Shown in pieces: positions 23,981-42,002 of a stretch of 64,000 bases of DNA. This stretch comes from Tritonibacter multivorans. GTDB lineage: Bacteria > Pseudomonadota > Alphaproteobacteria > Rhodobacterales > Rhodobacteraceae. The position numbers were made by a program, and so were the translations under genes. The first letter of the stretch is position 1, and each line of letters opens with the position of its first letter. The notes beneath the pieces were generated by a model that did not search any database, was not told the origin of the DNA, and worked only from the letters and a program-made list of their open reading frames with translations. The stretch lies in the NCBI RefSeq assembly GCF_001458415.1, contig NZ_CYSD01000002.1:62001-126000 (forward strand), in the 5' to 3' direction.

Positions 23981-24901
23981 ATGCGAATGCGCAACAAACG
24001 GCTGTTTATGACATTGGCGGCTTTGGTCACTGCCGGCGCGGTGTCCTCTCTCGCCGCTCAAGAGGTGATCGTCCCGACCTATCGCGGTGACGCAACCGTG
24101 GTCGGGATCCCTTCGAAAATTGTGGCATTGGATATTGCCGCAGTCGACACGCTGGATGCGCTTGGGGTGGAACTGGGCGGCGTTCCAGACAAGCTTTATG
24201 TTGATTATCTTGAGGATGTCGCAGCAAAGGCGCAGTCTGTTGGCACCCTGTTCGAGCCGAACTTCGAAGCGATTGCGCTAATGGGCCCCGACCTGATCGT
24301 CGCTGGAGGCCGGTCGTCTGACCAATACGAACCGCTTCTGGACATTGCGCCCACCATCGACATGACAATTTGGGGCGATGATCATGTCGCCCAATCGCTG
24401 CAGCGGCTCAAGAGCTTTGGTGAAATCACCGGCAAAACCGCAGAAGCCGCCGCAGTCAAAGCCGCGTTTGACGCCAAACTGGCGACCGCACAAGCAGCAG
24501 TGACCGGCAAAGGGTCTGCGCTGATTGTTCTGACCAATGGACCCAAGATCTCGGTCTATGGCGAGGGGTCCCGGTTTGGCTGGCTGCATTCGGCCGTCGG
24601 CCTGCCGGAAAACGTCCAGAATGTTGACGCGCAGACCCATGGCGAGGCGATCTCTTTTGAATTCATTGCAGAAGCCAACCCCGATTGGCTGATCGTGATT
24701 GATCGCGCTGCCGCGATTGGCCAAGACAACCAATCTGCCAAGGCGACGTTGGACAATGCGCTGGTGGCGCAGACCACTGCATGGTCCAAAGGTCAGGTGA
24801 TTTATCTGAAATCGGCCAATGTGTATGTCGCAGGCGGTGGCATCCAATCGATGATGTACACGCTTGATGACCTGATTGCTGGGTTTGGTCCCGGTGCCTA
24901 A
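23981..24901 (+). CDS. Siderophore ABC transporter substrate-binding protein (FatB/CeuE-like)
   Basis: A 306-aa periplasmic protein with an N-terminal signal ending LAAQ. The type III solute-binding fold is visible, with VGIPSKIVALDIAAVDTLDALG (in part IVALDIAAVDTL), PDLIVAGGRSSD, and GPKISVYGEGSRFGWLH typical of the FatB/CeuE/YclQ group that bind catecholate siderophores, including petrobactin and enterobactin fragments. Two start codons are close (23981 and 23987); AGAAGG lies just upstream. It heads an operon with two permeases and an ATPase and lies beside a petrobactin-type synthesis locus. The ligand is inferred to be ferric petrobactin or similar. Confidence 0.85.
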   Translation: MRMRNKRLFMTLAALVTAGAVSSLAAQEVIVPTYRGDATVVGIPSKIVALDIAAVDTLDALGVELGGVPDKLYVDYLEDVAAKAQSVGTLFEPNFEAIALMGPDLIVAGGRSSDQYEPLLDIAPTIDMTIWGDDHVAQSLQRLKSFGEITGKTAEAAAVKAAFDAKLATAQAAVTGKGSALIVLTNGPKISVYGEGSRFGWLHSAVGLPENVQNVDAQTHGEAISFEFIAEANPDWLIVIDRAAAIGQDNQSAKATLDNALVAQTTAWSKGQVIYLKSANVYVAGGGIQSMMYTLDDLIAGFGPGA

Positions 24902-24911
24902 TACGACCGTT

Positions 24912-25886
24912 ATGTCTGCGGCAGGGGGCGGCGTTGGCTGGCCCCTGCTTGGGGTGTTCGTGGGGCTGTCTGGCCTGACGGGCCTCAGCCTTTTTGTCGG
25001 GGTGCAGTCCCTGTCTTTGCCCGCGCTGTTTCAGGACCCCGAAGCGCTGCAGCTATTGATGATCAGTCGCCTGCCCCGCACGCTTGCCGCCCTTTTGACC
25101 GGCGCGAGCATGGCGGTGGCCGGTGTTATCATGCAGCTTTTGGTGCGCAATCGCTTTGTAGAGCCCGGCACCACTGGCACCAACGAAGCCGCCATGCTGG
25201 GGTTGCTGGCAGTGACCCTCTTGGCGCCGGGCTGGCCATTGTTTGCCAAAATGACCGTGGCGGCCGGAACCGCGCTGCTCGGCACCTTTGGTTTTATGCG
25301 GCTCAGCCGCCATTTGCCGCCGCAGCAACCCCTCTTGTTGCCTTTGGTGGGGCTGATCTATGCTGGGGTTCTCTATGCCAGCGCCACCTTCATCGCCTAT
25401 CAGACGGATCTCATTCAATATCTGGGGACCTGGATGGCGGGTGAGTTTTCCGGCGTGCTTGCAGGCCGTTACGAACTTTTGTGGCTCGCTGGATTCCTGT
25501 CGATTGTGGCCTATTTTGCAGCGGACCAATTCACCCTCGTCGGGCTGGGTCGCGGCCTGAGCCTGAGTCTGGGGCTGCGGTATGGGCAGGTTGTGGCACT
25601 TGGCGTTGCCACCGTGTCCATGGTGTCTGCGCTGGTGATTGTGACAGTGGGCACGTTGCCCTTTGTGGGGCTGGTTGTGCCCAATGTTGTATCCCGGCTG
25701 ATGGGCGACAATCTGCGCCAAAGCTTGCCTGTTGTTGCAGGTCTGGGCGCTGGAATGGTGCTGGCCTGTGACATTCTGGGCCGTGTCTTGCGCCACCCCT
25801 ATGAAATACCTGCGGGGACGATTTTTGGCATCCTAGGTGCGATTTTGTTCCTCTGGATGCTGCTGGGGCGCGGTTCAAATGCCTGA
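24912..25886 (+). CDS. Siderophore ABC permease 1 (FatD/CeuB-like, FecCD family)
   Basis: A 324-aa polytopic inner-membrane protein of the FecCD/BtuC family with about nine predicted segments. The hallmark region RLPRTLAALLTGASMAVAG, then RNRFVEPGTTGTNEAA (the conserved N-R..P...G block), and GTLPFVGLVVPN are visible. The frame is also open to TTG 24876 and GTG 24894, which would overlap the upstream stop; ATG 24912 is preferred but has a poor ribosome site, so GTG 24894 is a real alternative. It pairs with the next permease. Confidence 0.85.
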   Translation: MSAAGGGVGWPLLGVFVGLSGLTGLSLFVGVQSLSLPALFQDPEALQLLMISRLPRTLAALLTGASMAVAGVIMQLLVRNRFVEPGTTGTNEAAMLGLLAVTLLAPGWPLFAKMTVAAGTALLGTFGFMRLSRHLPPQQPLLLPLVGLIYAGVLYASATFIAYQTDLIQYLGTWMAGEFSGVLAGRYELLWLAGFLSIVAYFAADQFTLVGLGRGLSLSLGLRYGQVVALGVATVSMVSALVIVTVGTLPFVGLVVPNVVSRLMGDNLRQSLPVVAGLGAGMVLACDILGRVLRHPYEIPAGTIFGILGAILFLWMLLGRGSNA

Positions 25887-26823
25887 TAAGCGATTGATTG
25901 CACTGGGCGCCGCAGTTCTTGCGGCCTCGGTCGTTTTCCTGTTTTGGGGCGGCGCGTGGCGCTCTGCTTATGTGCTTGAACTGCGGGGCATAAAACTCGG
26001 TGGGTTGATCTGTGTCGGCACCGCCGTCGGCATCGCCACGGTCTTGTTTCAGACCCTGAGCAACAACCGCATTCTGACCCCGTCGATTATGGGCTTTGAT
26101 GCGCTCTTTATCTTAATGAAAACACTTGTGGTCTTTGCCTCAGCCGGGGTCGCGGTCCGCACGATGCCGACAGAGCTGGTTTTCCTGACAGACACGCTGT
26201 TTATGATTGGGGCCACGCTTGTGATTTTTCTGTTGGTCCTGCGGCGTGCCCGGCAGGATATCCAGTTGTTGATCCTTGTGGGCGTCATATTTGGCCTGCT
26301 GTTTCGGACCCTTGCAGGGTTTATGCAGCGCCTGCTGGACCCTTCGGAATTTGCCATGGTTCAGGCCAATATGTTTGCCCAGTTCAGCGGCATTGACCGT
26401 CAGGCCCTTTTCATTGCCATCTGCTTGATGATCTTGGTGGTTTTCTGGTTGGCCAGCAAACATCTGGTGCTCGATGTGATGGCATTGGGGCGCGGGCCTG
26501 CGTCCACACTCGGGGTATCTTATGACAGGTTGCAAGTGCACATGCTGATTGCCATTGCCACGCTGGTGGCGGTTTCAACCGCGCTGGTGGGGCCGCTGGC
26601 CTTTCTTGGGCTGTTGGTCACCGCCCTGACCCATAGCCTGATGCAAAGCCATCGACATGCCCTGCAATTGCCCGGCGCCGCACTGATGGGCTGCCTTGTG
26701 CTGATCCTTGGCCAGACCCTGTTCGAGCGGATCTTGAAGCTGGACTCCACCTTGGCGGTCATCATCGAGTTTTGCGGCGGCCTGTTGTTTCTTGCGCTTC
26801 TGGCAAAAGGAAAAGTCAAATGA
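25879..26823 (+). CDS. Siderophore ABC permease 2 (FatC/CeuC-like)
   Basis: A 314-aa polytopic FecCD-family permease. ATG 25879 overlaps the upstream permease stop by 8 bases, indicating translational coupling. Recognisable blocks are LGGLICVGTAVGIATVLFQTLSNNRILTP (in part FQTLSNNRILTPS), MGFDALF and GPLAFLGLLV. Together with the upstream permease it forms the translocation pathway. Many hydrophobic segments, about nine to ten. Confidence 0.85.
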   Translation: MPDKRLIALGAAVLAASVVFLFWGGAWRSAYVLELRGIKLGGLICVGTAVGIATVLFQTLSNNRILTPSIMGFDALFILMKTLVVFASAGVAVRTMPTELVFLTDTLFMIGATLVIFLLVLRRARQDIQLLILVGVIFGLLFRTLAGFMQRLLDPSEFAMVQANMFAQFSGIDRQALFIAICLMILVVFWLASKHLVLDVMALGRGPASTLGVSYDRLQVHMLIAIATLVAVSTALVGPLAFLGLLVTALTHSLMQSHRHALQLPGAALMGCLVLILGQTLFERILKLDSTLAVIIEFCGGLLFLALLAKGKVK

Positions 26824-27581
26824 TCCAGATTGACACGCTCAGTCACCACATCGCCGGAACGCCGGTCTTGTCGGACATCTCTCTGACCCTGCCGCAAGGC
26901 AAGATCACGGCGCTCATCGGCCCCAATGGTGCTGGGAAATCTACATTGCTCAATGCCATTGGTCGCCAACTTGAACCGCAGCAGGGCAATATCACCATAA
27001 GCGGGCAGAACCTGCGTCGCTTTGCGCCGCGCGACCTCGCCTTTCAGATCGCGGTGGTGGCCCAGCATCTGAATGTGGGAAGCCGCATCCGGGTGGCCGA
27101 TCTGGTTGGTTATGGCCGATGGCCCCATGCCCAAGGCCGCCTCAGAGCGGAGGACCGGGTCATGATTGACCGCGCCTTGATCCAATTTGACCTGCAAAAC
27201 CTGCGCCACAGGTTTCTGGACGAATTGTCCGGCGGACAGCGGCAACGCGCCTTTATTGCGATGGCCTATGCTCAGGACACCAATTGGCTGCTTCTGGACG
27301 AGCCATTGAACAACCTTGACCTGAAACACGCCCGTAGTCTGATGGCCAAGCTGCGCGAGCTGGTGGACACTCAAGGCAAAAGCGTGGTGATCGTTTTGCA
27401 CGACCTGAACTACACGCTTTCCTGGGCAGATCACGTCGTGGCCATGCGAGATGGGCAATTGGCTTTTGCCGGCCCCACCTTGGACGTTGCGACAGCAGAT
27501 GCGCTAAGTGATTTATACCAAACAGATATCAACATTGCGCAAACAGATCGCGGCACGCCCCTTGCCCTCTATCATCGCTAA
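26820..27581 (+). CDS. Siderophore ABC ATPase (FatE/CeuD-like)
   Basis: A 253-aa ATPase of the FecE/BtuD group. Walker A is GPNGAGKSTLLN, the signature is LSGGQRQRAFIA, Walker B is LLLDEPLNNLDL, and the H-loop is LHDLNYTL. ATG 26820 overlaps the permease stop TGA (ATGA), giving tight coupling. It completes the four-gene importer and is followed by the receptor gene 173 bp downstream, which has its own promoter box. Confidence 0.9.
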   Translation: MIQIDTLSHHIAGTPVLSDISLTLPQGKITALIGPNGAGKSTLLNAIGRQLEPQQGNITISGQNLRRFAPRDLAFQIAVVAQHLNVGSRIRVADLVGYGRWPHAQGRLRAEDRVMIDRALIQFDLQNLRHRFLDELSGGQRQRAFIAMAYAQDTNWLLLDEPLNNLDLKHARSLMAKLRELVDTQGKSVVIVLHDLNYTLSWADHVVAMRDGQLAFAGPTLDVATADALSDLYQTDINIAQTDRGTPLALYHR

Positions 27582-27633: not shown

Positions 27634-27646
27634 TAGTAAAATACTA
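27634..27646. promoter_or_regulatory. Candidate iron-responsive box A
   Basis: TAGTA-AAA-TACTA, a perfect 13-bp palindrome (with a further T at 27633), 108 bases upstream of the TonB receptor ATG. The same core recurs at 29894 and at 42024. Iron control is inferred from the three downstream gene sets. Confidence 0.65.
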
Positions 27647-27753: not shown

Positions 27754-29745
27754 ATGGCTCGGAATCGATCCCATCTCTTGCCGGGGCTGCTTTGTGGCAC
27801 GGCACTTACGCTTTCCTTCTCTACAGTTGCGCTGGCCGAACATGACCTCGGCGTTTCAGTCCTGGACCCCATTATCGCGGAAAAAGAAGACCCGCTTTAT
27901 GGTGCCGCGGACCGGGCGACGGCTGTCTATGTGGCCGAAGCCGAAATCGAGCGCGCGAGCCTCGGTGATCTGAAAGACCTGTTTGCTGGTCTGGCCTCTG
28001 TGTCCGTCGGTGGCGCTATACCTGTGGCCCAGAAGATCTTTGTGAACGGCGTGGATATGCTAAACCTCGCGATCAAGGTCGATGGCGTGTCGCAAAACAA
28101 CCGCGTCTTCCACCACGCCAGCGCCAACGCCTTTGACCCCGGCCTGATGAAATCGGTTCGTGTCGATCCCGGCGTGGCCCCCGCCGATGCGGGCCCCGGC
28201 GCGCTGGCTGGCGGCGTGACCATGGAAACCGTGGACGTTGCCGACATTCTGGAAGACGGCGATAATTTCGGCGGCAAAGCGCGTTTTGGCTACTCTGACA
28301 ACGGAAGCACCGCACAGGCTGCCCTGACTTTGGCCGCACGTCGCGAAGGCTTTGAAGTTCTGGCCTATGCCCGTCGCGCCACCGGCGACGACTACGAAGA
28401 CGGCGATGGCAATGTGGTCACCGGCACCGAAGCCAAATTGTCCTCTCAGCTTTTGAAATTCGCCTATGAGTCCGCCGAGGGCCACCGGGTCGAATTTTCA
28501 GCCCAGCAAATGAAAGACAACGGGCTGCGCAATACCCGCGCCAACTTTGGCTATATGCCGCCGCGCGGTCCTTTCCCGGATTTGCGCGTTTATGACACCA
28601 CCCGCCGGATTGCCTCCCTGCGTTATGAAAACACATTTGACAGCGGCCTTTGGGACCCGAGTGTGGTTGTTGGCTTCTCGGAAACTGATCTGAAAACAGA
28701 AGTGCCGTTTGGCGATGATGCACAATCCCGCACATTCTCTGTGACCGTTCAGAACGAATTCCACCTCAGCGAAAGCAACACCATCACGGCGGGTTTGGAT
28801 TATCAGCGCAAGGACAACCGCTATAATGCGGATTGGGTCACCGAAGCCACCTCTGAGGAAAGCCGGAACATCGGCATCTTTGCACAGGCCCGCCTGGAGC
28901 CGACGGACCGTCTCAAGGTTTCGACTGGTCTGCGGGCTGACTGGCAGGACTTTACCGATCGCAATGGCGGCAGCCAAAGCCCGAACGGCATCAGTGGCAA
29001 CCTGTCTCTGACCTATGATGTCACCGACTCCCTGTCGCTGCGGGCGGCCTATTCCACTGTCTTTGGTGGCATTATCCTCGAGGACAACTATCTGCTCGGG
29101 GACGCTTGGGATTATTCGGGGCTGACCGACGCGTCCCGTGGCCGCAACCTTGTGATCGGCGCCGATTTTGAGCAGGGCAACTGGACCTTTGGTGGCGAAT
29201 TCTTCCGCACCAATATCGATGATGCGCGGTTCTCGACTTATGACAGCGGGCTGGCAGCCTACACCGCCAGCCACAACGACTTTGAAACCAAAGGCGTGAA
29301 CATCGCAGCCACCTATGGCTGGGACAGCGGTTTTGCCCGCTTTACCGCAAGCCGGTCCGAGAACTACATCAATGGCGAAAAAGCCTCGAGCTACTATGTT
29401 CTGGACTACGGCGCACCCTTGGGCACCGTTCTGGCGCTCGAGGTTCAACAAGAGCTGCCGCAGTATAACCTCGTGGTCGGAGGATCGGTGGATGCCGCGC
29501 TCTCTTATGACCACGGCGCAGTCGAAGCGGATCCGGTTCAGAAACTCGACGGCTATCAGGTGCTCAACCTCTTTGCCGAATACACCCCGCCCTCTGCTCA
29601 GAACGTGACGATCCGCGCCTCGGTCGACAATGTGTTCGACACGCAATTTGCAGACCGCGCGACCTATGGCGCAGACTATGGCGGCTTCAACACCCTCAAA
29701 GAACCGGGGCGCACCGTCTCTGTTGTGGCGACTGTCAAGTTCTGA
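27754..29745 (+). CDS. TonB-dependent siderophore receptor
   Basis: A 663-aa outer-membrane beta-barrel receptor. A signal peptide ends ALA at about residue 28; an N-terminal segment GVSVLDPII may be the TonB box. The plug domain follows (LKDLFAGLASVSVGGAIP, shown in part) with the usual FVNGVDMLNLAIKVDGVSQN block. The C-terminus VSVVATVKF ends in phenylalanine as barrel proteins do. The length is typical for a catecholate siderophore receptor. It sits between the ABC importer and the petrobactin operon, so ferric petrobactin is the inferred ligand. An iron box lies upstream and a terminator downstream at 29789. Confidence 0.85.
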   Translation: MARNRSHLLPGLLCGTALTLSFSTVALAEHDLGVSVLDPIIAEKEDPLYGAADRATAVYVAEAEIERASLGDLKDLFAGLASVSVGGAIPVAQKIFVNGVDMLNLAIKVDGVSQNNRVFHHASANAFDPGLMKSVRVDPGVAPADAGPGALAGGVTMETVDVADILEDGDNFGGKARFGYSDNGSTAQAALTLAARREGFEVLAYARRATGDDYEDGDGNVVTGTEAKLSSQLLKFAYESAEGHRVEFSAQQMKDNGLRNTRANFGYMPPRGPFPDLRVYDTTRRIASLRYENTFDSGLWDPSVVVGFSETDLKTEVPFGDDAQSRTFSVTVQNEFHLSESNTITAGLDYQRKDNRYNADWVTEATSEESRNIGIFAQARLEPTDRLKVSTGLRADWQDFTDRNGGSQSPNGISGNLSLTYDVTDSLSLRAAYSTVFGGIILEDNYLLGDAWDYSGLTDASRGRNLVIGADFEQGNWTFGGEFFRTNIDDARFSTYDSGLAAYTASHNDFETKGVNIAATYGWDSGFARFTASRSENYINGEKASSYYVLDYGAPLGTVLALEVQQELPQYNLVVGGSVDAALSYDHGAVEADPVQKLDGYQVLNLFAEYTPPSAQNVTIRASVDNVFDTQFADRATYGADYGGFNTLKEPGRTVSVVATVKF

Positions 29746-29788: not shown

Positions 29789-29821
29789 GACGGCTCCGTT
29801 CCGCGGGGCCGTCTTTCTTTT
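29789..29821 (+). terminator. Rho-independent terminator after the receptor gene
   Basis: GACGGCTCC (29789-29797) pairs with GGGGCCGTC (29105 offset: 29805-29813) with one G-T wobble and a 7-base loop, followed by TTTCTTTT. It lies 44 bases after the receptor stop. Confidence 0.8.
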
Positions 29822-29893: not shown

Positions 29894-29906
29894 TAGTAAA
29901 ATACTC
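29894..29906. promoter_or_regulatory. Candidate iron-responsive box B
   Basis: TAGTAAAATACTC, identical to box A in 12 of 13 bases (palindrome arms TAGTA and TACT). It lies about 220 bases upstream of asbA, before the likely leader. Confidence 0.6.
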
Positions 29907-29930: not shown

Positions 29931-30128
29931 ATGCCTCACAGAAGCTGCGAGTCGTGCCATGCCAGCACGCCACATCGCCTGCCAGTCTCCTTAAAATCAA
30001 TTTGCATCAAAGCTATACGTCGCAGCCCCTGTGACGGACTGCACTGTGATGCACAAAGGGAGCTCGCTCGGATGACCGTCGCATTCACTTTGCCCTCTCA
30101 CTGCCCCATGTGCGGAGCAGTGAGATGA
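29931..30128 (+). CDS. Possible small ORF overlapping the asbA start
   Basis: An ORF of 65 codons whose TGA overlaps the asbA ATG (ATGA). It is cysteine-rich (SCESCH, CPMCG) and may be a leader peptide or chance. No family is recognised and no clear ribosome site precedes the first ATG. Kept at low confidence because of the coupling geometry. Confidence 0.2.
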   Translation: MPHRSCESCHASTPHRLPVSLKSICIKAIRRSPCDGLHCDAQRELARMTVAFTLPSHCPMCGAVR

Positions 30129-31885
30129 GTTTTCAACGTATAGCTGATAAACAATCCCGCGCAGAACAGGCCTCTCTGCAAGCGCTGGTCAATGGGTTCC
30201 TGCGCGAAATCGATCCGGGTCTCTGGCTTCAATCTGAAGACGGGCCCCGTCTTCAGATTGAACTGCGCCATTGCAAAGCGGTTTTGTGCTTGGAGGTGCT
30301 TTATGCCTCTCAGACCGGCCCACATGAATTTGGTGGGATACGGGTTCTGGACCCTCTATCTGGCTCTCAGCGGGCCACTTCTGCGGTTCAGGCCCTGTGC
30401 CTGGTCGCCCAAGAATGCGCCGCGCGTCTGGGTCGCGATGCCGATCGGAAGTTACCAGAATTCCTGCGCTGCGTTTTCAACAGCAACGCAGAAATCACCG
30501 CGTTTATGGACCATGCCGCAAAAGATGCCGACCTTCGGGATTTTCTAACCGCAGAACAGAGCGTGGTCTTTGGCCATTGGTTGCACCCAACCCCCAAAAG
30601 CCGCGACGGGATGAGCAACTGGCAGCAAAAAACCTATGCACCGGAGTGGCAGGGACGGTTTCAGCTGACATGGTTTGCAGTTGATGCGGGCCTCTTTGAA
30701 GAAGACAGCGCAACCACTCCAGTTGACCAGATTGTCACGGATCTTCTGGGACAGGACAGCGCGTTTTCCCTTGCCCCAAATGAGCGGCTTTTGCCCCTGC
30801 ACCCCCTGCAGGCTGAGGCGCTGCGCCTTGACCCCGAGGTGGCATCGCTTTTGGATCGTGGCGTGCTGCGCGACCTTGGCCCGGCCGGACAGGAATTCTT
30901 TGCGACCTCTTCCGTGCGCACGCTTTACGCACCGAATTGCCCCTGGATGGTAAAGTTCTCCATTCCTGTCCGTCTGACCAATTCTTTGCGGGTGACCAAA
31001 CGAAGTGAACTGCGTGTCGGCCTGCTGATGGCGCGCCTGCTTGCGCGTCTGAACTTTGCCACCGACGTGCCCTGCTTCCAGATCCTTGACGATCCGGCCT
31101 ATGCCAATGTTCGGATACCCCAACGACGCGAAAGCGGGTTTGAAACCATCTTTCGACAAAACCCGTTCCTGCAGGGCAAAAGCAATGGCATCGTGAATGT
31201 TGCCGCGTTGACAGCCGATCCGGCAGTTGGCGCGACAAGTCTGCTTGCCACCGAAATTCTGCGCCTCGCGCAAGCGGAGGGCCAAAGCCGCAGCACAATC
31301 GCCAGACGCTGGTTCGACGCCTATCTGGATTGCATGTTAGTGCCGCTTTTGACGCTCTATGACCGCCATGGCATCGCCGTCGAAGCACATCAGCAAAACG
31401 CCCTTCTGGATTTGTCCCAAGGCTATCCAGGGCGCGGGTTTTTCCGGGACAATCAAGGCTATTTTGTTACCCAAGAGGCACTGCCGCGGCTTGCTGCCCT
31501 GCAGCCTGAGCTTGCCGAGCTTGACGCGCTGGTCTTTGAGGCAGAGCACATTCATCAGCGGTTTGCCTACTATCTGTTTGTCAATCAGATCTTTGCTGTC
31601 ATCCGGCGGCTGGGACGCGATGGCATCGTTCCGGAAACCACAACGCTGGCGCAACTGGCGCAGCGGCTTGATGATCTGGCACCGCACCTCACTGGCGCAG
31701 GGGCTGGTTTCATCGCCTATCTGCGCAGTAGCCCCCAACTGGCAACCAAAGCCAACCTGCTAACCCGCTTTCACGACATGGACGAACTGCAAACCGCAGC
31801 GTTAGAAGGGATGTTTATCGACATGCCCAACCCGCTTTGCCGTCAGACCATCACAATGCGGGAGGTTGAAGATGCTTGCCTCTGA
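30125..31885 (+). CDS. asbA: AsbA-like NIS siderophore synthetase (IucA/IucC family)
   Basis: A 586-aa NRPS-independent siderophore synthetase. The family motif HWLHPTPKSR is near residues 151-160, and LHPLQAEAL near 228 is the second conserved site. In petrobactin synthesis AsbA uses ATP to join citrate with spermidine or a spermidine derivative. The start is ATG 30125 with GGAG eight bases upstream. It overlaps asbB by 14 bases. The run asbA-asbB-asbC-asbD/E-asbF that follows is the B. anthracis petrobactin order, which makes this assignment strong. Confidence 0.85.
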   Translation: MSFQRIADKQSRAEQASLQALVNGFLREIDPGLWLQSEDGPRLQIELRHCKAVLCLEVLYASQTGPHEFGGIRVLDPLSGSQRATSAVQALCLVAQECAARLGRDADRKLPEFLRCVFNSNAEITAFMDHAAKDADLRDFLTAEQSVVFGHWLHPTPKSRDGMSNWQQKTYAPEWQGRFQLTWFAVDAGLFEEDSATTPVDQIVTDLLGQDSAFSLAPNERLLPLHPLQAEALRLDPEVASLLDRGVLRDLGPAGQEFFATSSVRTLYAPNCPWMVKFSIPVRLTNSLRVTKRSELRVGLLMARLLARLNFATDVPCFQILDDPAYANVRIPQRRESGFETIFRQNPFLQGKSNGIVNVAALTADPAVGATSLLATEILRLAQAEGQSRSTIARRWFDAYLDCMLVPLLTLYDRHGIAVEAHQQNALLDLSQGYPGRGFFRDNQGYFVTQEALPRLAALQPELAELDALVFEAEHIHQRFAYYLFVNQIFAVIRRLGRDGIVPETTTLAQLAQRLDDLAPHLTGAGAGFIAYLRSSPQLATKANLLTRFHDMDELQTAALEGMFIDMPNPLCRQTITMREVEDACL

Positions 31886-33576: not shown

Positions 33577-34827
33577 GTGTTTGTCTTAAACGACACCCCA
33601 GTTGACCCGAACGCCCTGTTTCCGCGCCTGGAGCGCACCTTAAGCGGCTGCGCCAGCCATCGTTATGCGCTGCACCTCAGCGACACCGGAACCCTACTGT
33701 CCACAATCCTGTTTCTGCGTTCCAAAGGCGCGGGGGTTTTCCCAATCCGGGCTGACATTCCCGCAGACAAAGCTCTGACGATGGCCAAGACCGCTGGCTG
33801 CGACCGGTTCATAGCAGAGGGTTTGAAAGAACACGAAATCCCCTGCCACGCGGCGGTAGAGCCCGGTGTTCTGGTGCAGATGTCTTCGGGCACCACCGGC
33901 GCCCCAAAGGTGATTGCCCGCAGTTGGCAAAACATCGACGAAGAAATCGCGGCCTACGCCGCTTTCTTTGTGCGCAGCGCTGAAATGACCCCGGTCATCG
34001 CCAGCCCGATCAACCACAGCTACGGGCTGATTGCCGGAGCCATGGTGGCCCTGCACCGGGGTCATGTGCCGGTGCTGATCGATGCGGTAAACCCCAAGTA
34101 TATCTTGCGGCGCATGCGCGAAATTGAGAACCCCGTTCTTTATACCTCGCCCGCCATGCTGCACACGCTGGCTAGGCTTTTGCCCAAAGATCAGAAGCTG
34201 AATGCCGTGGTGACATCCGGCACAGTGCTGCCGGACGCCTGGTTCGCCGTGATCCGCGCGCGCACGACCCATTTCTTCCAGCAATATGGCTGCTCCGAAG
34301 TTGGTTGCATTGCCATCAATCAGGATCTGCAAAACCCGGCCGCCGTTGGCCGCGCCTTGCCGCATCTGCGGCTTATGGCCGGCACCGCGTCGTCCCCGGC
34401 TGCCGTTCAAGTCGAAAAACAAGGCCGGTTGATTGCAACCGGGGACCTCGGCGTTTTGGACGAGACCGGGCTGCTGACCTTTGTGTCGCGCGCAGATGAT
34501 ATGATCAATGTGGCCGGGCTGAACGTTTACCCGCAGGACGTTGAAGCCGCGGTTATGACGTCCGACGGGATTTCCGACGCAGTTGCCTTTCGGGTCGAAG
34601 ACGGCATGGCCGGCGCCCGTGTGGGTCTGCTGTATTGCGGTCACACGGTCACTGAAGACGACGTCCGCCAGATTTGCAACGCACGACTGGCCCCCTATCA
34701 GCAGCCAACGCTGATCAAACAGGTCTCCAACCTGCCACGCGAAGCGAACGGAAAACTCAGCCGCCGCGCCATTGCCGCGCAATTTGCCCCGGCCGGGGCC
34801 TCGCAAACGCAGGAGGTGCCAGCATGA
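33577..34827 (+). CDS. asbC: AsbC-like 3,4-dihydroxybenzoate adenylating enzyme
   Basis: A 416-aa AMP-forming ligase of the ANL family. The phosphate loop SSGTTGAPK is at about residues 107-115, the adenylate site YGCSEVG around 244-250 and the C-terminal catalytic lysine block PREANGKLSRRAI. It is short compared with EntE-type enzymes (about 540 aa), like AsbC. It activates 3,4-dihydroxybenzoate and loads the carrier domain of the next protein. The GTG start follows GAGGAG and lies one base after asbB. It overlaps the next gene by 4 bases. Confidence 0.85.
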   Translation: MFVLNDTPVDPNALFPRLERTLSGCASHRYALHLSDTGTLLSTILFLRSKGAGVFPIRADIPADKALTMAKTAGCDRFIAEGLKEHEIPCHAAVEPGVLVQMSSGTTGAPKVIARSWQNIDEEIAAYAAFFVRSAEMTPVIASPINHSYGLIAGAMVALHRGHVPVLIDAVNPKYILRRMREIENPVLYTSPAMLHTLARLLPKDQKLNAVVTSGTVLPDAWFAVIRARTTHFFQQYGCSEVGCIAINQDLQNPAAVGRALPHLRLMAGTASSPAAVQVEKQGRLIATGDLGVLDETGLLTFVSRADDMINVAGLNVYPQDVEAAVMTSDGISDAVAFRVEDGMAGARVGLLYCGHTVTEDDVRQICNARLAPYQQPTLIKQVSNLPREANGKLSRRAIAAQFAPAGASQTQEVPA

Positions 34828-36101
34828 CCTTTGACAGCATCCTGACCGCGATCGAAAGCACCCTGCGCGGTCCGCTTCAGAATACACATATGCAGCATTT
34901 CAGCGCCCATGCCCTTCTCAATGACCAGCTGCATCTGGATTCCGTGTTGATCATCAACCTGCTATTGCATCTGGAAACGGATCACGGGATCGATGTGCCC
35001 GAGCGTGAGTTCAGCAAGGATGCGTTCAAAACCGTCGCTGACCTGATCCACTCGATCCTTGGTTCCGAGGCGGAGAAACCGATTGGGGTAACAACGGCCA
35101 GCCCCTCGCCCGAAGGTGCGGAAATTACGGTTCATTGCGTCGTCAGCTGCATCTGCGCAGCCATACGCCGTCAAGAAGGCGTCGATTTCCGGCCCTTCTA
35201 CTTTGGCACCTGGGACAGTGACTTTGCGCTGACCCCAGACATGCGACTGTCCTACCACAGCCCAGAGATGAGCCACGCCCATTTTTTCCAATGGGCGACC
35301 AAGCTCTATGGGTTGCAGATCCGCTCCTGGTACGATCACAGCCAGAACAAGTCCGCCAACCTCATCCATTTTGAGACCTGCCTTGCGCAAAAGCACCCTT
35401 CTGAAGATCTGATGGTGCTGGTGGATATGTACCACCTCCCGGAACGCGAAAATAAGTTCAACCAGAATCCTTTTCCTCATTTTGTCCTGATCGAAGGCAC
35501 CGCAGATCCTGACAGTTGGCACATGAATGATGCCGATTATCGCTGGCGGGGCGACTTGCCGCGTGCTGCGATTTTGAATGCCATGGCACAGCCAACCGTC
35601 GCAGGCGGCTATGTCTTGCGCTGGGATCAGGTCGCGCCCCCAAAACCCGCGGATGTGGCAGAGTATTTCAACAAAACCCTGCTTGCCGACCATAACCCCC
35701 TGACCTCGGCCGTTCGTGACATTGTGACCCATCACGCCAGTCCCGAACGCCTGCCAGCCATGCAGGACGCGCTGCGCGAGCTGCCGGTTTTGTCCCTGCG
35801 CAAATACGCCTTCGAGCACGCCTTTGCGTTTTTCTGGGAAGAGCTGGACACGCCATTTGCTGATTTCGATGCGGAATGTGACCGAATTGAAGCGCTCTGC
35901 GAAGGATATCGCCAATTCCACTATCAAGCGGCCCGCGCCGCACATACGCAGGACCAAACTTTGATCCCAGAGGTGCTGCAGGCGTTGGATCGACTGGACC
36001 GGTTGGAATACGACATCAAAGCGGCCCTCACGGCGCAGTTTGACCAATGGTGCGCGCTGAAGCTGGCACCGAAAACCGAAACTCAGGGGGAACTGGCATG
36101 A
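34824..36101 (+). CDS. asbDE: AsbD-AsbE fusion: aryl carrier domain plus condensing enzyme
   Basis: A 425-aa protein made of two parts that are separate in B. anthracis. Residues 1 to about 85 are an acyl-carrier domain with the phosphopantetheine serine Ser40 in LHLDSVLII; the serine number matches AsbD. From about 95 to 425 it matches AsbE, which moves 3,4-dihydroxybenzoyl from the carrier to spermidine; blocks such as RPFYFGTWDSDF and MSHAHFFQWA are visible. The joined length (425) is close to the sum of AsbD (about 91) and AsbE (about 327), so fusion without loss is likely. ATG 34824 overlaps asbC by 4 bases. A linker of about 10 residues (PIGVTTASPSPEG) joins the parts. Confidence 0.8.
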   Translation: MTFDSILTAIESTLRGPLQNTHMQHFSAHALLNDQLHLDSVLIINLLLHLETDHGIDVPEREFSKDAFKTVADLIHSILGSEAEKPIGVTTASPSPEGAEITVHCVVSCICAAIRRQEGVDFRPFYFGTWDSDFALTPDMRLSYHSPEMSHAHFFQWATKLYGLQIRSWYDHSQNKSANLIHFETCLAQKHPSEDLMVLVDMYHLPERENKFNQNPFPHFVLIEGTADPDSWHMNDADYRWRGDLPRAAILNAMAQPTVAGGYVLRWDQVAPPKPADVAEYFNKTLLADHNPLTSAVRDIVTHHASPERLPAMQDALRELPVLSLRKYAFEHAFAFFWEELDTPFADFDAECDRIEALCEGYRQFHYQAARAAHTQDQTLIPEVLQALDRLDRLEYDIKAALTAQFDQWCALKLAPKTETQGELA

Positions 36102-36937
36102 GACTGTCGCTCTGTACCATCTCCTTTCGCCATCAGCTGATTGACCTCAAAGACATCGCGTTTTGGGCGCGTGACAGCGGGTTTCAGGGGATTGAACTCT
36201 GGGGAGCGCATGCCCGAAATCAGTCGCCTTTGGCGCTGTACAATGCCCAGTGGATGGCCGCGCAGGGGCTGTCGATTCCAATGGTCAGTGATTATCTGCC
36301 CCTTCATGATCTGGCCTTGCTGCGGCAAAGCACGCTGGACCTGTGCCGTCAGGCGCAGATCTGGGGCGCGACGAAAATGCGCACCTTCGCCGGGATGACA
36401 GCCACCGCCGACGCCTGCCCTGACCAGCGCCGCAAGACGGCGCGCGCCTTGCGCGAAGCCTGCGCGATTGCCCAGGATAATGGCCTGAAGCTTTTGATCG
36501 AAACCCACCCAGGCACATTGGCTGACAGCCTTGCCGCGACCTGTGACCTGATTTCCGAGACCAACCATCCCGGACTTGCTGTCAATTTCGACGCTATTCA
36601 CCTCTGGGAGGCAGGGGATGACCCGGTTGTAGCCCATAAGGTGCTGTCGCCCTATATCGCCCACTACCATCTGAAAAACATCACATCGCGCGACCGTCTG
36701 GGCGTCTTTGCCCCCGCCAATATCTACAGCGCAGCCGGAGACCGCGACGGGCTCGTGTCCCTTTTTGACGGGGCCTATGACTATCGACCGCTGCTGACAT
36801 TGATGGCAAAAACACCCCAATGCGAAGCCTCACTGGAGTGGTTCGGCGGCAATGTGTTTGCCGCGCTCAAAACGGACCTGAACCAGATCCGATCCTTGAC
36901 CGATCTCCCCCACGACGCCTCTGTAAACGCGGGATAA
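36098..36937 (+). CDS. asbF: AsbF-like 3-dehydroshikimate dehydratase
   Basis: A 279-aa TIM-barrel enzyme of the xylose-isomerase-like family. It starts MRLSLCTISFRHQLIDLKDI and shares GFQGIELWG, TFAG, IETHPGTL, HLWEAGDDP and ASLEWFG with AsbF of petrobactin synthesis, which makes 3,4-dihydroxybenzoate from 3-dehydroshikimate using a divalent metal. Length matches AsbF (280 aa). The Glu, Asp, His and Glu metal ligands fall within these blocks. ATG 36098 overlaps the fusion gene stop (ATGA). Last gene of the asb operon, followed by a strong terminator. Confidence 0.9.
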   Translation: MRLSLCTISFRHQLIDLKDIAFWARDSGFQGIELWGAHARNQSPLALYNAQWMAAQGLSIPMVSDYLPLHDLALLRQSTLDLCRQAQIWGATKMRTFAGMTATADACPDQRRKTARALREACAIAQDNGLKLLIETHPGTLADSLAATCDLISETNHPGLAVNFDAIHLWEAGDDPVVAHKVLSPYIAHYHLKNITSRDRLGVFAPANIYSAAGDRDGLVSLFDGAYDYRPLLTLMAKTPQCEASLEWFGGNVFAALKTDLNQIRSLTDLPHDASVNAG

Positions 36938-37023: not shown

Positions 37024-38892
37024 CTATGCGGGCGCGGCGGTCCTATCAGCGCTCCGGGAGACGTCTTCTGTGTGTCCAGCACCTACCGCCTGTTTGGCCC
37101 AAAGATCGGCATAAAGTCCGCCTTCCTCCAGCAGCTGACGATGCGTGCCATCGGCGACAATACGACCTTTGTCGAGAACCAGAATGCGGTCCATCTGCGC
37201 AATGGTGGACAGGCGGTGGGCAATTGCGATCACCGTCTTTCCGCCCATCACCTCCATCAGTGTCTTCTGGATCTCTGCTTCGACAGCGCTATCCAGTGCA
37301 GAGGTTGCCTCGTCCAGAACAAGGATTGGGGCATCTTTCAGCACCACCCGCGCGATTGCGATCCGCTGGCGCTGCCCGCCAGACAGGGTCACACCACGTT
37401 CCCCAACATGCACATCATAGCCGGTACGGCCGCAATGGTCTTTGAGGGAGGCTATGAACGTATCCGCACGGGCGCGCTGCGCGGCTTGGATCACCTCGGC
37501 CTCGCTCGCGGTGCTTCGCCCATAAAGAATATTGGCCCTCAAAGACCGATGCAGCAGTGACGTGTCCTGCGTTACAACACCGATCTGAGCTCTCAAACTG
37601 TCCTGCGTGACGGTTGCAATGTCCTGCCCATCAATCAGGATTTTGCCCTCTTGCGGGTCATGATAGCGCAGCAACAGTTTGACCAAGGTCGATTTCCCAG
37701 CACCGGACGGGCCAACAATTCCAACCCGTTCACCTGCACGCAGGGTCAGGTCGATGCCGTCCAGCCCGCCGCCGTCATTGCCAAACCGATGCGTTACGCC
37801 TTGGAACGAAATCTCGGCCTCTTTCAAGTTCAGCTCCTGCGCGTCCGGCGCATCAGTGACACGATGCGGCGGAGCAATGGACTGCAATCCTTCGCGGATG
37901 ACCCCAAGGTTTTCGAACAACCGGATCACCACCCAAAGGATCCAACCCGCCATTCCATTCAGACGAATGGTAAGCGCGGCTGCCGCAGCGACCTCGCCCA
38001 CGGAGACCAGCCCGCGGGTCCAAAGCCAAATGGCAGGAACAACCACGATCAGGATCAGTACCCCATTCAGCGCAATGCTGCCAAACGCCAGCTGCGTCAT
38101 CATCCGCAGGAACCGGCGATAGCCCAGTCGCAGCTTTTGCAACGACGCAAGCGCATGGCGGTCCTCCTGGTCCCCCTGTGCGAACAACTTTACGGTTTCA
38201 ATATTGCCATATGCATCGACAATCCGCCCGGACGCATCAGAACGCGCAGCAGACCAGCGTTCTGCGGTGCGCGCCACGTGCAGCGCGATATAGCGCACAT
38301 AGGCCACATACAGCCCGACCCAAAGCAGCAAGGGCACCGCCAGTCGCCAGTCGATCTGCATCAAAACCACCACAGCGCCCACCATATAGGTGATGGCAAA
38401 CAGCAGGGCCTCGAACATCATGTGCACGCTGTCCTGGACCGCAGGCCCCATTTGCATGACCCGATTGCTTAACCGTCCTGCAAAATCGGTCTGGAAAAAA
38501 CCAACCGACTGGCGCAGCAGATGACGATGGCCCTGCCAGCGCACCTGTTCTTGCAGGTTCGAGGACAGCGATTGCTCCAGCAGCAAGTGGTTCAGCCCGA
38601 CCAGACAGGGCCGCACAAGCAAGATACAGAACAGCGCCAGCAGCATTTCAACCTTATAGGTTGACCAAAACGCGGCAGCTCCGGCCGCGTTCATCAAATC
38701 CAGAACACGACCAGAATAGAAGATCAGACCGCTTTCCATAAGCGCGGTCAGAACGCCGGTCAGAACCATAAGCGGCAACAGCCGCCGGTAAGGATAGAGC
38801 TGTTGAGTTAGATAAGCCCACACGGTTGCTGCAGGCGGAGAATTTTCTGTCGGATCAAACGGATCGACAAGTCGTTCGAAAAATCGAAACAC
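37024..38892 (-). CDS. ABC exporter half-transporter (ABCB type)
   Basis: A 622-aa protein with a fused six-helix membrane domain (about 1-340) and ATPase domain (about 365-600). Walker A is GPSGAGKSTLVK, signature LSGGQRQR, Walker B ILVLDEATSALD, H-loop IAHRLSTI. The start is GTG 38892 with AGGGAC upstream; no later Met is convincing. It is convergent with the asb operon and 188 bp from tonB. Siderophore loci often carry an exporter; this one may export petrobactin, but a lipid or peptide export role is possible, and no iron box was found directly upstream. Confidence 0.8.
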   Translation of the reverse strand: MFRFFERLVDPFDPTENSPPAATVWAYLTQQLYPYRRLLPLMVLTGVLTALMESGLIFYSGRVLDLMNAAGAAAFWSTYKVEMLLALFCILLVRPCLVGLNHLLLEQSLSSNLQEQVRWQGHRHLLRQSVGFFQTDFAGRLSNRVMQMGPAVQDSVHMMFEALLFAITYMVGAVVVLMQIDWRLAVPLLLWVGLYVAYVRYIALHVARTAERWSAARSDASGRIVDAYGNIETVKLFAQGDQEDRHALASLQKLRLGYRRFLRMMTQLAFGSIALNGVLILIVVVPAIWLWTRGLVSVGEVAAAAALTIRLNGMAGWILWVVIRLFENLGVIREGLQSIAPPHRVTDAPDAQELNLKEAEISFQGVTHRFGNDGGGLDGIDLTLRAGERVGIVGPSGAGKSTLVKLLLRYHDPQEGKILIDGQDIATVTQDSLRAQIGVVTQDTSLLHRSLRANILYGRSTASEAEVIQAAQRARADTFIASLKDHCGRTGYDVHVGERGVTLSGGQRQRIAIARVVLKDAPILVLDEATSALDSAVEAEIQKTLMEVMGGKTVIAIAHRLSTIAQMDRILVLDKGRIVADGTHRQLLEEGGLYADLWAKQAVGAGHTEDVSRSADRTAAPA

Positions 38893-39080: not shown

Positions 39081-39941
39081 TCATTTTGGCGCTCGATACG
39101 TGAGCGTGGTGTCAAACTGACGCTGGGTGACCTGAAGCCCTTTTGGCGCTTTGGGGAAACGGCGAATGGACTTCAACAGACGCTGCGCGGCTTGGTCCAA
39201 TGCAGCGACCCCAGAAGAACGGGCAATACGGTAGCTCAGGACATTCCCCTTGCTATCAAGTGTGAAACTCACCTGCACGCCACCATCGCCATGATTGCCA
39301 CGCGGATAGCGAATACCCTTGCGCAGCCTGGCTGACACCCGCGCCTCCCAAATCGCGTTCAGCTCTGCCTGTTTGCCTGCCGACTTGGCCGACGCCTGCG
39401 CCGTACCCGTTCCGGCCTCAGTGCCCCCAGCGGTTCCAGCCGCACGCTGCGCAGCCCGCCCGGCGCTGTCCTGCTTGGACGTGACCGCATCTCCTGGCGG
39501 CGCTTTCTTCTTGGGTTTCGGCGCTGGTTTGTGCTCTGGTTTCGGTTCTGGTGCCTGAACCGGCTCGGGAGGCGGGGGCGGCGCGGTGTCCACCTGCACC
39601 GCACGCTCCGTTGCGGTCGCCGGCAACGGCATCGACAGCTGCGCCAATGCGCGCGGCGCCTCAGATAATTTGATCTGCGGAATCTCTGGTGCCTGCGTTG
39701 CCGCAGTCTGCACCGGCGGAAGCGAAGGTTTTTGCTGCGGGATCGGCGGTGGACGTTCCCACTGCTCCACCATATCCGCAACCGAAGCTGCCGCAGCAGC
39801 AAGGGTGACGTCATGCGTCCCGCCTGATCCCCCAGTTTGGCTGCCAGACTGCGGCAGGCTGACAAACCCCGCAATCAGAACAGTCGCCGCAAGGCCGCCA
39901 AAGACAACGACCTCAAACATTCCTTGCCCAAGCTGTTTCAT
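39081..39941 (-). CDS. tonB: TonB energy-transducing protein
   Basis: A 286-aa TonB. An N-terminal membrane anchor is at about residues 7-28 (FEVVVFGGLAATVLIAGFV in part), followed by a long proline/lysine-rich periplasmic spacer (PEPVQAPEPKPEHKPAPKPKKK in part) and the C-terminal domain (VQVSFTLDSKGNVLSYRIARSSG in part). It transmits energy from ExbB/ExbD to outer-membrane receptors, most simply to the receptor at 27754-29745. It overlaps the second exbD by 4 bases and ends the operon. Confidence 0.85.
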   Translation of the reverse strand: MKQLGQGMFEVVVFGGLAATVLIAGFVSLPQSGSQTGGSGGTHDVTLAAAAASVADMVEQWERPPPIPQQKPSLPPVQTAATQAPEIPQIKLSEAPRALAQLSMPLPATATERAVQVDTAPPPPPEPVQAPEPKPEHKPAPKPKKKAPPGDAVTSKQDSAGRAAQRAAGTAGGTEAGTGTAQASAKSAGKQAELNAIWEARVSARLRKGIRYPRGNHGDGGVQVSFTLDSKGNVLSYRIARSSGVAALDQAAQRLLKSIRRFPKAPKGLQVTQRQFDTTLTYRAPK

Positions 39942-40321
39942 TTGGGGGAGACCGCCAGCTCGACCGCGCTGCGACCCGCCTCTGCCAATTGACGCAGAAT
40001 ACGCGCGAGCCGCGCTGCCTCCAACTTCGCATCCGCCCGGATCTGCAAAACCTGAACACGATCGCCCAGCCCCGCAATCGCCACCAGTGCTGCATCGCCT
40101 TCTTGTCCGGCAAAGGACAGGCGTCCATCAGATGAAATAAACAGGACCTGTTCCCCTGCGCCAGCCGCCTCAAGCGCGGCTTCAGGCGGCACGATTTCAA
40201 AGGGATCTGGCTGGGCAAGCCGTGAGGTCATCAAAAAGAAGATTAACAACAGAAAGACGACGTTGATCATCGGAACAATGGACTCCGCCGGTTTTCGGCG
40301 TGTGGGCGTGCTGAAGTCCAT
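39938..40321 (-). CDS. exbD: ExbD/TolR-family protein (second copy)
   Basis: A 127-aa ExbD-type protein: short cytoplasmic N-terminus, single membrane helix VPMINVVFLLLIFFLMTS with the proton-relevant Asp replaced by Asn (PMINVV, where the usual motif is PMIDV), and a periplasmic domain. The Asp-to-Asn change in PMINVVFLLL is unusual compared with the neighbouring copy, which has PMIDVVFLLL, and may mean this copy is structural. ATG 40321 follows the first exbD stop by five bases. Confidence 0.8.
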   Translation of the reverse strand: MDFSTPTRRKPAESIVPMINVVFLLLIFFLMTSRLAQPDPFEIVPPEAALEAAGAGEQVLFISSDGRLSFAGQEGDAALVAIAGLGDRVQVLQIRADAKLEAARLARILRQLAEAGRSAVELAVSPK

Positions 40322-40326: not shown

Positions 40327-40698
40327 TTACTCCACCAAGACCACAGAGGTAATGCCACCCGCCCGCAGCGCTTCGGTTACAGCAAGTATCCGCTGCAAAT
40401 CTGCCCCATCCGTGCCCCGCAAAATCACCATGTCGCCTGCTTTTTCCATCAAAGGAGCCAAAGCGCCCGGCAGATCGGTCACAGGCTGGCCATTCAGCAA
40501 GAGCGACTGCGGACCAATATCGACCAAACGCGGCGGACCAGTGTAAGTGCCACCTCCAGCCGCCAGCGGCATGGGCAAAACAGTATCCGTGCCAAACCGC
40601 GAGGCAAGCATAAAGAACACCAATAGCAGGAAAACCACATCGATCATCGGCGTCAGGCTGGGCCTGCGGCGGGGGCGTGCTGGCGGGGCAAAGTCCAT
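40327..40698 (-). CDS. exbD: ExbD/TolR-family protein (first copy)
   Basis: A 123-aa ExbD with the proton-pathway Asp in TPMIDVVFLLLVFFM, one membrane helix and a C-terminal periplasmic domain. It works with ExbB to use the proton motive force. It is 12 bases downstream of exbB and five bases upstream of the second copy. Two unequal exbD genes in tandem are known in several Gram-negatives and imply a heteromeric assembly. Confidence 0.85.
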   Translation of the reverse strand: MDFAPPARPRRRPSLTPMIDVVFLLLVFFMLASRFGTDTVLPMPLAAGGGTYTGPPRLVDIGPQSLLLNGQPVTDLPGALAPLMEKAGDMVILRGTDGADLQRILAVTEALRAGGITSVVLVE

Positions 40699-40710: not shown

Positions 40711-41688
40711 CTACTCTGCTGCGACACGCAATTCCGGCGCGGTGGGTGACGCCAGAAACAGCCGCGTTGCACAATCCTCAACATCGAGGCGGATTTTCTC
40801 AATCACGGCCTCATACCATGTGAGCGCAGCAGAGGCCGGGATCGCCACTGCCATCCCGGCAGCCGTGGTCAACAAAGCCTCCCAGATCCCCCCAGCGAGC
40901 AGAGAGGGATCCGCTTTTGACCCCGCGGCTTGCAACGCCTGAAAGGCGGCGATCATACCCAAAACTGTGCCCAGCAGGCCCAGCAAAGGGGCAATCGTTG
41001 AAATCAGCTCCAAGGCGCCCAGGCCACTGCGGGCCGATGCGATCTGCTTTTTTGCCACGCGGGTGGTTTCTTCGCGTGCACCGGATTGAGAGCGTTCCGA
41101 AAGCGCTGTGATGGCCGCTGACACCACCTTGGACCGCACGCCCCTGCGGCCGTAAACAAGCGCAAGCGCCTGATCTTTTTGCCCGGCCTCAAAGGCAGCA
41201 ACAGCCCGGAACGCTTTGCCCCGTGACCACGCCCCGAGGAGCGCCAAGCGCCATGCCTTCCACAAAATCAACGCAAGTGTTGCCAATGCAAGCGCCGCAA
41301 TGGCCCAAATCGACGGGCCACCATCGACGAGAAACTTCAACGCCCTGCCGTAAGCCGCCTGCGCAATTTCGACTGGTGTTTCTGCCGGCGCGGCTTCTTG
41401 CACACCTACGTCAGCCTGCGACGAGGGCCCCGCCAAAGCCGTCGAACCCTCGGTCGCCAGATGCATCTCGTCCGATGCAGTCTGCAAATCTCTCGGTTCT
41501 TCCTGTTGCGGGCTTGATCCTTCCGCGACCAATGCTGCACCGATGTCGGGGACCGCATCTAGCGTAAGAAGCGCTGGGGCTTCGGGCAGTTCAGATGCGA
41601 CAACAGGCTGGTTCACCTGAGCGGTCAACGAGGCCGCCGACAGGGCTAAAACAACCGCAACAGACGTCGCAAGAAAGGCTGGTCGCAT
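40711..41688 (-). CDS. exbB: ExbB/TolQ/MotA-family proton channel protein
   Basis: A 325-aa ExbB with an unusual N-terminal extension: a signal peptide (to about residue 23, LTAQ) and a periplasmic segment of about 100 residues before the first helix ([19 protein letters not shown] in part). The two other membrane helices ([27 protein letters not shown] in part, and [24 protein letters not shown] in part) are canonical, with the Thr and Glu residues of the channel. The longer N-terminal part is a feature of some alphaproteobacterial ExbB proteins. Forms the complex with both ExbD copies and TonB. Confidence 0.85.
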
Positions 41689-41708
41689 GGTTTGGTTCTC
41701 TCAACAGG

Positions 41709-42002
41709 TCAGGCAGCCAAAGAGGCCCAATTCATCGCCTCAAAGGCTTCGCGATGGGCAAAACACGCCAAATGTTTGTCGATAATGATCCGGGCTTCCG
41801 CGAGAGCGCCCGTCTCTTCAGAACAAACGGTGATGGTCAGCAGATCTGCGTCGGCGGTGAGCTCGACCGGGCCTGTGCCCAGGGCGACCGTACCGTTGGT
41901 TTCAGTGAATTCTGCTTTAACCTTATGGCCAAAATGCTTGCACAGCTGCTGAAGATACTGAGAGGCTTTTGGTGTTTGAAAAGTGCCGGTATCGCGGAGC
42001 AT
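41709..42002 (-). CDS. DUF2218-family protein
   Basis: A 97-aa soluble protein with no signal, of the DUF2218 family. It is first in the exbB-exbD-exbD-tonB operon and an iron box starts 22 bases upstream of its ATG. The sequence shows two Cys and several His (CKHFGHK, CFAHREAF), which could bind metal, but no function is known. Members of this family are often beside iron-uptake genes. A role in siderophore iron release or regulation is a guess. Confidence 0.65.
   Translation of the reverse strand: MLRDTGTFQTPKASQYLQQLCKHFGHKVKAEFTETNGTVALGTGPVELTADADLLTITVCSEETGALAEARIIIDKHLACFAHREAFEAMNWASLAA

Follow-up and report, generated by a model that had tools for sequence, protein, structure and literature searches.

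A stretch of 64,000 nucleotides from the roseobacter Tritonibacter multivorans (bases 62001-126000 of contig C2 in a 4.17-Mb genome of 45 contigs; hereafter the window) contains what the evidence supports as a complete petrobactin-family (asb) siderophore locus, accompanied by genes for uptake and energy transduction and by an exporter candidate. The locus is very probably a roseobactin-type member of that family, for which a pathway can be proposed, and it most likely makes a bis-(3,4-dihydroxybenzoyl) polyamine-citrate siderophore, although sequence does not tell petrobactin, roseobactin and a variant apart. A plus-strand block (23957-36937) encodes a binding protein, two FecCD permeases, an ATPase, a receptor, two IucA/IucC synthetases, an adenosine monophosphate (AMP)-binding enzyme, a protein joining a carrier to DUF6005 and a TIM barrel of the AP_endonuc_2 type, and within it the neighbouring genes from asbA to asbF overlap or lie 1 base apart, in an operon-like manner. 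Convergent to asbF is a minus-strand block with an ATP-binding cassette (ABC) exporter, TonB, two ExbD, ExbB and a DUF2218 gene (Table 1). An earlier note on this DNA had named asbA, asbB, asbC, an asbD-asbE protein, asbF, a FatB-type importer, a TonB-dependent receptor, an exporter candidate and ExbBD-TonB genes, and all were found where it had placed them; every frame is intact, which rules out a decayed locus. However, its account of the ExbBD-TonB genes omitted that there are two ExbD genes and that the DUF2218 gene, at the start of which its stretch ended, heads the operon. Its statement that nearly all steps lie within 18 kb holds for biosynthesis, uptake, energy transduction and the exporter candidate, whereas the genes likely to supply the polyamine lie on another part of the contig.

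Two nonribosomal peptide synthetase-independent siderophore (NIS) synthetases are co-located in the window with an AsbF-type dehydratase, the combination by which an asb locus is recognized (PMC8776838), and are joined by an AsbC adenylation enzyme, an AsbD carrier with its phosphopantetheine serine and AsbE/DUF6005, with the AsbC and AsbD models scoring under their NCBIfam cut-offs. The best solved matches of AsbB and AsbF are the petrobactin enzymes of the same names, that of AsbA is aerobactin synthase IucA (3.2e-53), and the asbA and asbB genes are the only matches to the IucA/IucC family in the whole genome. In an NCBIfam scan of ten proteins, considering the best 25 families per protein, AsbC matched PRK08308 best, and the AsbD model NF005798 reached 51.1 bits on the fused protein (cut-off 100). 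The presence of AsbF, AsbC and DUF6005 rules out an aerobactin or rhizoferrin locus. The AsbF-like motifs that had been claimed for the last asb gene are borne out, as the window has all of eight positions that do not vary across the 49 aligned AsbF rows. These presumably correspond to the catalytic residues for metal and substrate in the published structure, R102, E142, H144, D172, H175, H198, K200 and E253 in structure numbering. Among five motif positions of AsbB, four do not vary across 52 rows, and 49 of these rows keep the fifth; the five AsbA motif positions are kept in 51/52 rows, the remaining row being gapped; and the carrier Ser40 lies in a DS motif, with Ser in this column in 26 of the 52 rows, while the other 26 are gapped because the aligned piece is without the site. 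As a separate observation, no AsbF match was found in the available DNA of three of the 51 tree-set relatives (L058, L068 and L069; 49 of the 52 rows, window included, have one), and in L058 and L068 a single frame encodes both AsbB and AsbC. These three may obtain their aryl acid from elsewhere or use another.

The position of the locus among its relatives was examined in a FastTree tree of the five concatenated Asb proteins with 52 tips (L001, L002, L046, L050, L051, L055 and L056 were left out as duplicates or fragments of included loci, L047 as a fragment of L058, and L007 and L009 as short). The window pairs with Epibacterium ulvae (support 1.0), and both fall in a roseobacter clade of 14 tips (support 1.0) together with Phaeobacter, including P. 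inhibens, and Leisingera; a third member of the genus, G307, has support 0.0 for its place within the tree. Identity of the concatenation to the window is 66.1% for E. ulvae, 60.6% for P. inhibens and 58.6% for G307, the lowest in the clade, as against 38.9-48.7% for all clusters outside it (alphaproteobacteria 42.6-48.3%, one of which, G222, is from the window's own family; Bacillota 38.9-42.1%). By its place with the P. inhibens cluster, and by its having the same neighbours, the locus is classed as a roseobactin-type roseobacter cluster. A scan of genome contigs with AsbDE gave 43 loci, and 71 plasmid records match, 47 of them from Phaeobacter and 5 from Leisingera; DUF6005 occurs in 2/295 sampled family genomes and in 3/18 genus genomes, with the window's own genome counted in both. 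Since the genus genome G309 contains the E. ulvae U95 locus (L003) letter for letter, the window and E. ulvae U95 belong to the same genus as the collection draws it. Among the tips, the contig titled Pseudomonas sp. ISL-84 (L038) has an asb cluster of the Bacillota type and is placed among the Bacillota, and its label may be wrong.

The suggestion that petrobactin is known from Bacillus and Marinobacter only, and that the locus would therefore extend its range, did not survive comparison with the literature. Clusters have been published for Phaeobacter, Epibacterium, Alteromonas, Sinorhizobium, Rhodopseudomonas and Methylobacterium: the petrobactin pathway is reported to span Gammaproteobacteria, Alphaproteobacteria and Bacilli, and Alteromonas macleodii makes petrobactin (719.361 m/z), as demonstrated by liquid chromatography-mass spectrometry (PMC8776838); an asb cluster is described in Sinorhizobium fredii alongside 245 alphaproteobacterial genomes with AsbABCDEF (PMC8822346); further asb clusters are described in Rhodopseudomonas and Methylobacterium (PMC11317620); and for Paracoccus marcusii CP157 asbABEF are reported, with asbCD given as not found (PMC8273931). 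The claimed extension fails because the same core gene set sits in P. inhibens (plasmid pPGA1_78), in Leisingera, S132 included, and in E. ulvae U95. A published description of the E. ulvae cluster has it organized like that of P. inhibens and hypothesized to be petrobactin-like, with a culture supernatant active in the chrome azurol S assay (PMC7989816). The locus adds to the roseobactin-type members of the petrobactin family, and another from its own genus had already been published. For other roseobacters, siderophore clusters and a catechol-positive supernatant are reported in Leisingera, where ANG1 makes a catechol siderophore (PMC4337385), siderophore genes of P. inhibens T5 are placed on a 78-kb plasmid (PMC4062626), 3,4-dihydroxybenzoate is listed in the P. 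inhibens exometabolome (PMC5643483), and NIS siderophore clusters are noted in two P. gallaeciensis genomes, 2.10 and 17395 (PMC4771312). Roseobactin is named as a siderophore of P. inhibens (PMC13421778, citing Wang et al. 2022; PMC11317620). Elsewhere "roseobactin(s)" denotes Phaeobacter algicides (PMC3425499, PMC12951363), probably the roseobacticides, and this clash of names could mislead literature searches on the siderophore. Citrate-catecholate siderophores of the petrobactin kind are described as photoreactive and as important for marine iron acquisition (PMC8776838), and which roseobacters make them therefore matters for marine iron ecology; to the sporadic petrobactin-family clusters of roseobacters the window adds one clear locus.

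One small new point concerns regulation. The 12-base sequence TAGTAAAATACT has exactly three exact copies in the 4.17-Mb genome, each 5' of a siderophore transcription unit (receptor, asbA and DUF2218-exbB), and is probably a candidate iron-responsive box on these three units. Allowing up to 2 mismatches, 4 copies of the 12-mer were found in the window against 0.46 expected, a number reached in 1 of 100 shuffles; an 11-mer with up to 1 mismatch likewise gave 4 against 0.08 expected, three exact copies and one inexact site at 61579. The genome also has two one-mismatch copies, one well before a Rieske-type gene and one within a sufB-like frame (flanks as read); however, these are meaningless, as the reversed pattern used as a control gave 4 sites at up to 1 mismatch (not split by mismatch number) against 5 for the box, and the telling point is that all three exact copies lie at the cluster. 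Relatives were searched over 400 bases upstream of starts estimated by tblastn, at up to 2 mismatches to the 11-base core, and near boxes were present, window included, at 8/14 receptor promoters (at -115 to -121), 9/14 asbA promoters and 9/14 DUF2218 promoters (at -23 to -33), the Leisingera loci in this comparison being close kin rather than independent. Under the same settings no near box was found in any of 6 fatB upstream stretches, at the receptor, asbA and DUF2218 promoters of two Phaeobacter loci, or upstream of the window's exporter gene. In 8 Leisingera-type loci the DUF2218 box also falls in the exporter's upstream stretch, because there the two genes diverge from each other. In E. 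ulvae, asbA is preceded by TTGACTGAATTACTCAA, which fits the form TGA-N9-TCA given for the RirA box (PMC8822346). The window's box may be a form of the Iron-Rhodo-box, a 19-bp palindrome upstream of iron genes. The Iron-Rhodo-box is reported to resemble the RirA box and to be bound by IscR (PMC4618611). A common promoter box offers a testable link among the receptor, synthesis and TonB energy genes.

On top of what was observed directly (the identity and order of the genes, their intact frames, the conserved residues, the relatives and the box), a pathway can be proposed in which the chemical steps, linker, export, regulation and product are assigned by analogy with characterized homologues. 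In this model AsbF would convert 3-dehydroshikimate to 3,4-dihydroxybenzoate, which AsbC would activate as the AMP-ester and load onto the AsbDE carrier domain. The DUF6005 domain of AsbDE would then hand the aryl acid to a polyamine, for which spermidine from the carboxyspermidine route is the probable candidate, before AsbA and AsbB couple two such arms to citrate. The spermidine arms are suggested by genes 40 kb past the window (C2:165632-168870), where a saccharopine-dehydrogenase-like (CASDH-like), a carboxynorspermidine-decarboxylase-like (CASDC-like) and an agmatinase-like gene, the last called from its translation, stand side by side. The carboxyspermidine route is the likely source because its genes are present and because genome searches for the spermidine synthase and S-adenosylmethionine decarboxylase families gave no match, the same searches matching in 11/14 and 8/14 control genomes, respectively. 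Polyamine genes lie within the cluster in Leisingera S132, and are reported there in squid-symbiont Leisingera (PMC4337385). The product would probably be secreted by the ABC exporter beside asbF, a gene that stands beyond asbF on the opposite strand in all 14 roseobacter relatives reaching that far (L003-L006, L008-L011, L015, L018, L048, L049, L057 and L070). The ferric form would then re-enter by way of the receptor, for which ExbBD-TonB would supply the energy, and of FatBDCE, with the three transcription units under the common, probably iron-responsive, box. The FatB-type protein has YclQ (3gfv, 1.7e-45) as the fourth of 40 solved matches, three other binding proteins ranking ahead. DUF2218 was placed in 13/13 roseobacter relatives of the promoter comparison; ExbB and ExbD adjoin the cluster in 8 relatives (L004-L006, L008, L011, L015, L018 and L049), in all of them oriented opposite to the window's, and were not found beside it in L003, L010, L048, L057 and L070, of which L003 stops at a contig end.

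Several points weigh against this reading of the locus. None of the NCBIfam models among the best 25 per protein reached its curated cut-off for any of the ten proteins scanned, and the CASDC match, at 400.5 bits, falls slightly below its cut-off of 409.05. The best named models for the receptor, which score under cut-off, are haem receptors; among solved structures it is most like an iron-regulated FrpB-type protein and haem receptors, in matches that cover only about the first third. Moreover, the product of the window's strain is predicted from genes; Tateyamaria ANG-S1 is reported with siderophore genes and without siderophore activity (PMC4337385); and methylolanthanin, from a homologous cluster, is reported to carry 4-hydroxybenzoate and to serve lanthanides (PMC11317620), so that gene content alone fixes neither the aryl group nor the metal. 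A product of that kind, a metallophore that binds a different metal or carries a different aryl group, could draw on the fact that the homologous mll cluster has an asbF-like gene and yet makes a 4-hydroxybenzoate lanthanophore, and on the occurrence of DUF2218 in both cluster types. However, it is highly improbable for the window, where the intact AsbF has all eight residues, the cluster comes with FatBDCE and a candidate iron box, and two mll features, a GNAT acetyltransferase and a B-C fusion, were not seen; a Pfam scan of 14 cluster proteins (ExbD1, DUF2218 and antisense frames standing outside it) contained no GNAT acetyltransferase.

As to the exact product, we give an even chance to roseobactin or a close analogue with arms differing from those of petrobactin, as suggested by the tree and by the receptor, exporter and DUF2218 neighbourhood in common with P. 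inhibens; however, that pPGA1_78 carries the roseobactin locus, and that roseobactin is unlike petrobactin, is what we infer. Petrobactin itself, with two spermidine arms, is a more doubtful candidate: all Asb functions are present, the genome has a probable spermidine route and the cluster genes showed no acetyltransferase, but the nearest clusters are roseobacterial, where a separately named product is reported, and the window's proteins are closer to those of P. inhibens than to any outside the 14-tip clade. It is rather unlikely that the product is a 3,4-catecholate citrate siderophore that is neither of these, under a dedicated three-promoter TAGTAAAATACT regulon, exact nowhere else in the genome.

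Away from the locus, the window contains a Glyco_transf_56 (fucosyltransferase-type) gene at 20282-21316, a second copy of which, 49% identical, lies on the same contig (C2:55332-56348), and a palindrome, TTGACTACTTGGTCAA, at 23602-23617 near the start of a preA-like gene (22491-23585, minus strand). We take this palindrome to resemble the RutR pyrimidine box. As to the replicon, the plasmid initiator family PF10134, the only initiator family sought, matches on contig C40 and not on C2, which leaves C2 not proven chromosomal, and bases 40000-64000, compared with plasmids by megablast, gave matches to 14 records that all fell short of 80% query coverage. An empty-site test by way of the downstream flank gene failed, 13/18 genus genomes having a match, the best besides the window's own being 41% identical.

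Table 1. Features of the siderophore locus, in window coordinates; percentages are identities and values such as 2.1e-31 are E-values.
Feature	Position	Strand	Evidence or remark
FatB-type siderophore-binding protein (start codon uncertain)	23957..24901	+	Peripla_BP_2 2.1e-31
FatD-type permease	24912..25886	+	FecCD 5.6e-59; 71% to P. inhibens pPGA1_78 permease
FatC-type permease (start uncertain)	25879..26823	+	FecCD 2.4e-43; 57% to P. inhibens
FatE-type ATPase	26820..27581	+	ABC_tran 2.4e-33; 63% to P. inhibens
Candidate iron box TAGTAAAATACT, 5' of receptor gene	27634..27645	+	exact match
TonB-dependent outer-membrane receptor	27754..29745	+	Plug and barrel domains; 77% to E. ulvae, 60% to P. 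inhibens
Terminator-like hairpin 3' of receptor gene	29789..29813	+	weak alone: 3 in region vs 2.8 expected (shuffles)
Candidate iron box TAGTAAAATACT, 5' of asbA	29894..29905	+	exact match
AsbA-like NIS synthetase	30125..31885	+	IucA_IucC 9.5e-53, FhuF-like domain; 61% to E. ulvae, 55% to P. inhibens
AsbB-like NIS synthetase	31872..33575	+	IucA/IucC 1.4e-64; AsbB 3to3 7.7e-86
AsbC-like aryl adenylating enzyme	33577..34827	+	PRK08308 448.8 bits (cut-off 513); AMP-binding
Fused AsbD (aryl carrier, Ser40) and AsbE (DUF6005)	34824..36101	+	AsbD model 1.4e-13; DUF6005 5.9e-138
AsbF-like 3-dehydroshikimate dehydratase	36098..36937	+	AsbF 3dx5 4.8e-65
ABC exporter, candidate siderophore exporter	37024..38892	-	ABC_membrane and ABC_tran
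TonB	39081..39941	-	TonB_2 9.7e-13
Second ExbD	39938..40321	-	ExbD 9.1e-16
First ExbD	40327..40698	-	66% to Leisingera ExbD
ExbB	40711..41688	-	MotA_ExbB 4e-26
DUF2218 protein, role unknown	41709..42002	-	PF09981 6.1e-23, sole genome match; heads exbBD-tonB operon
Candidate iron box TAGTAAAATACT, 5' of DUF2218-exbB	42025..42036	-	exact match

Among known systems, the E. ulvae U95 cluster is the closest relative by tree and by identity. However, four polyamine genes are reported inside that cluster (PMC7989816), whereas in the window's genome such genes lie elsewhere, and no ExbB match was found in the E. ulvae DNA examined, which ends at a contig end, while the window has ExbB. The pPGA1_78 cluster of P. 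inhibens DSM 17395 has, like the window, FatBDCE, receptor, AsbA, B, C, DE and F, the ABC exporter and DUF2218. It differs in that its fatBDCE genes are divergent from the receptor, which in the window they precede on the same strand; in that exbBD-tonB were not found in its 29-kb stretch, whereas DUF2218-exbBDD-tonB adjoins the window's cluster on the minus strand; and in that the box was not found at up to 2 mismatches. The Leisingera clusters have the Asb order, the exporter and DUF2218 in common with the window, several with ExbB-ExbD-ExbD-TonB and most with near box copies, although their DUF2218-TonB operon is oriented the opposite way. The rhodopetrobactin and methylolanthanin clusters are reported to have the D-E fusion and DUF2218, as in the window, and also a GNAT acetyltransferase and, in mll, a B-C fusion, neither of which was seen in the window's cluster (PMC11317620).

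Fusion of AsbD to AsbE was considered as an unusual feature and rejected, being the usual form in the proteobacterial loci examined. It is ordinary because in all 26 of these, the window and 25 relatives, the DUF6005 frame is long enough for a carrier; 25 of them give a clear carrier match, whereas that of the Paracoccus locus L068 is weak (E 0.3). In contrast, AsbD and AsbE are separate in 28/28 Bacillota loci, with at most 33 residues in frame before the matched DUF6005 part and a separate carrier match in 27, L025 being the one where it was not found (these counts take L038 as Bacillota by its tree place, and leave out L001, L002, L046, L047, L050, L051, L055 and L056). The asb order had been likened to that of B. 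anthracis, and the A-B-C-DE-F order does match that of Bacillus-group loci, except that D and E are fused in the window. Petrobactin export in B. anthracis is reported to use a resistance-nodulation-division pump (PMC5596346), whereas the window's candidate exporter is of the ABC type. The Bacillus petrobactin loci have the same enzyme functions as the window in the same order, and the asbABCDEF genes of Marinobacter and Alteromonas, likened here by description only, have the same functions.

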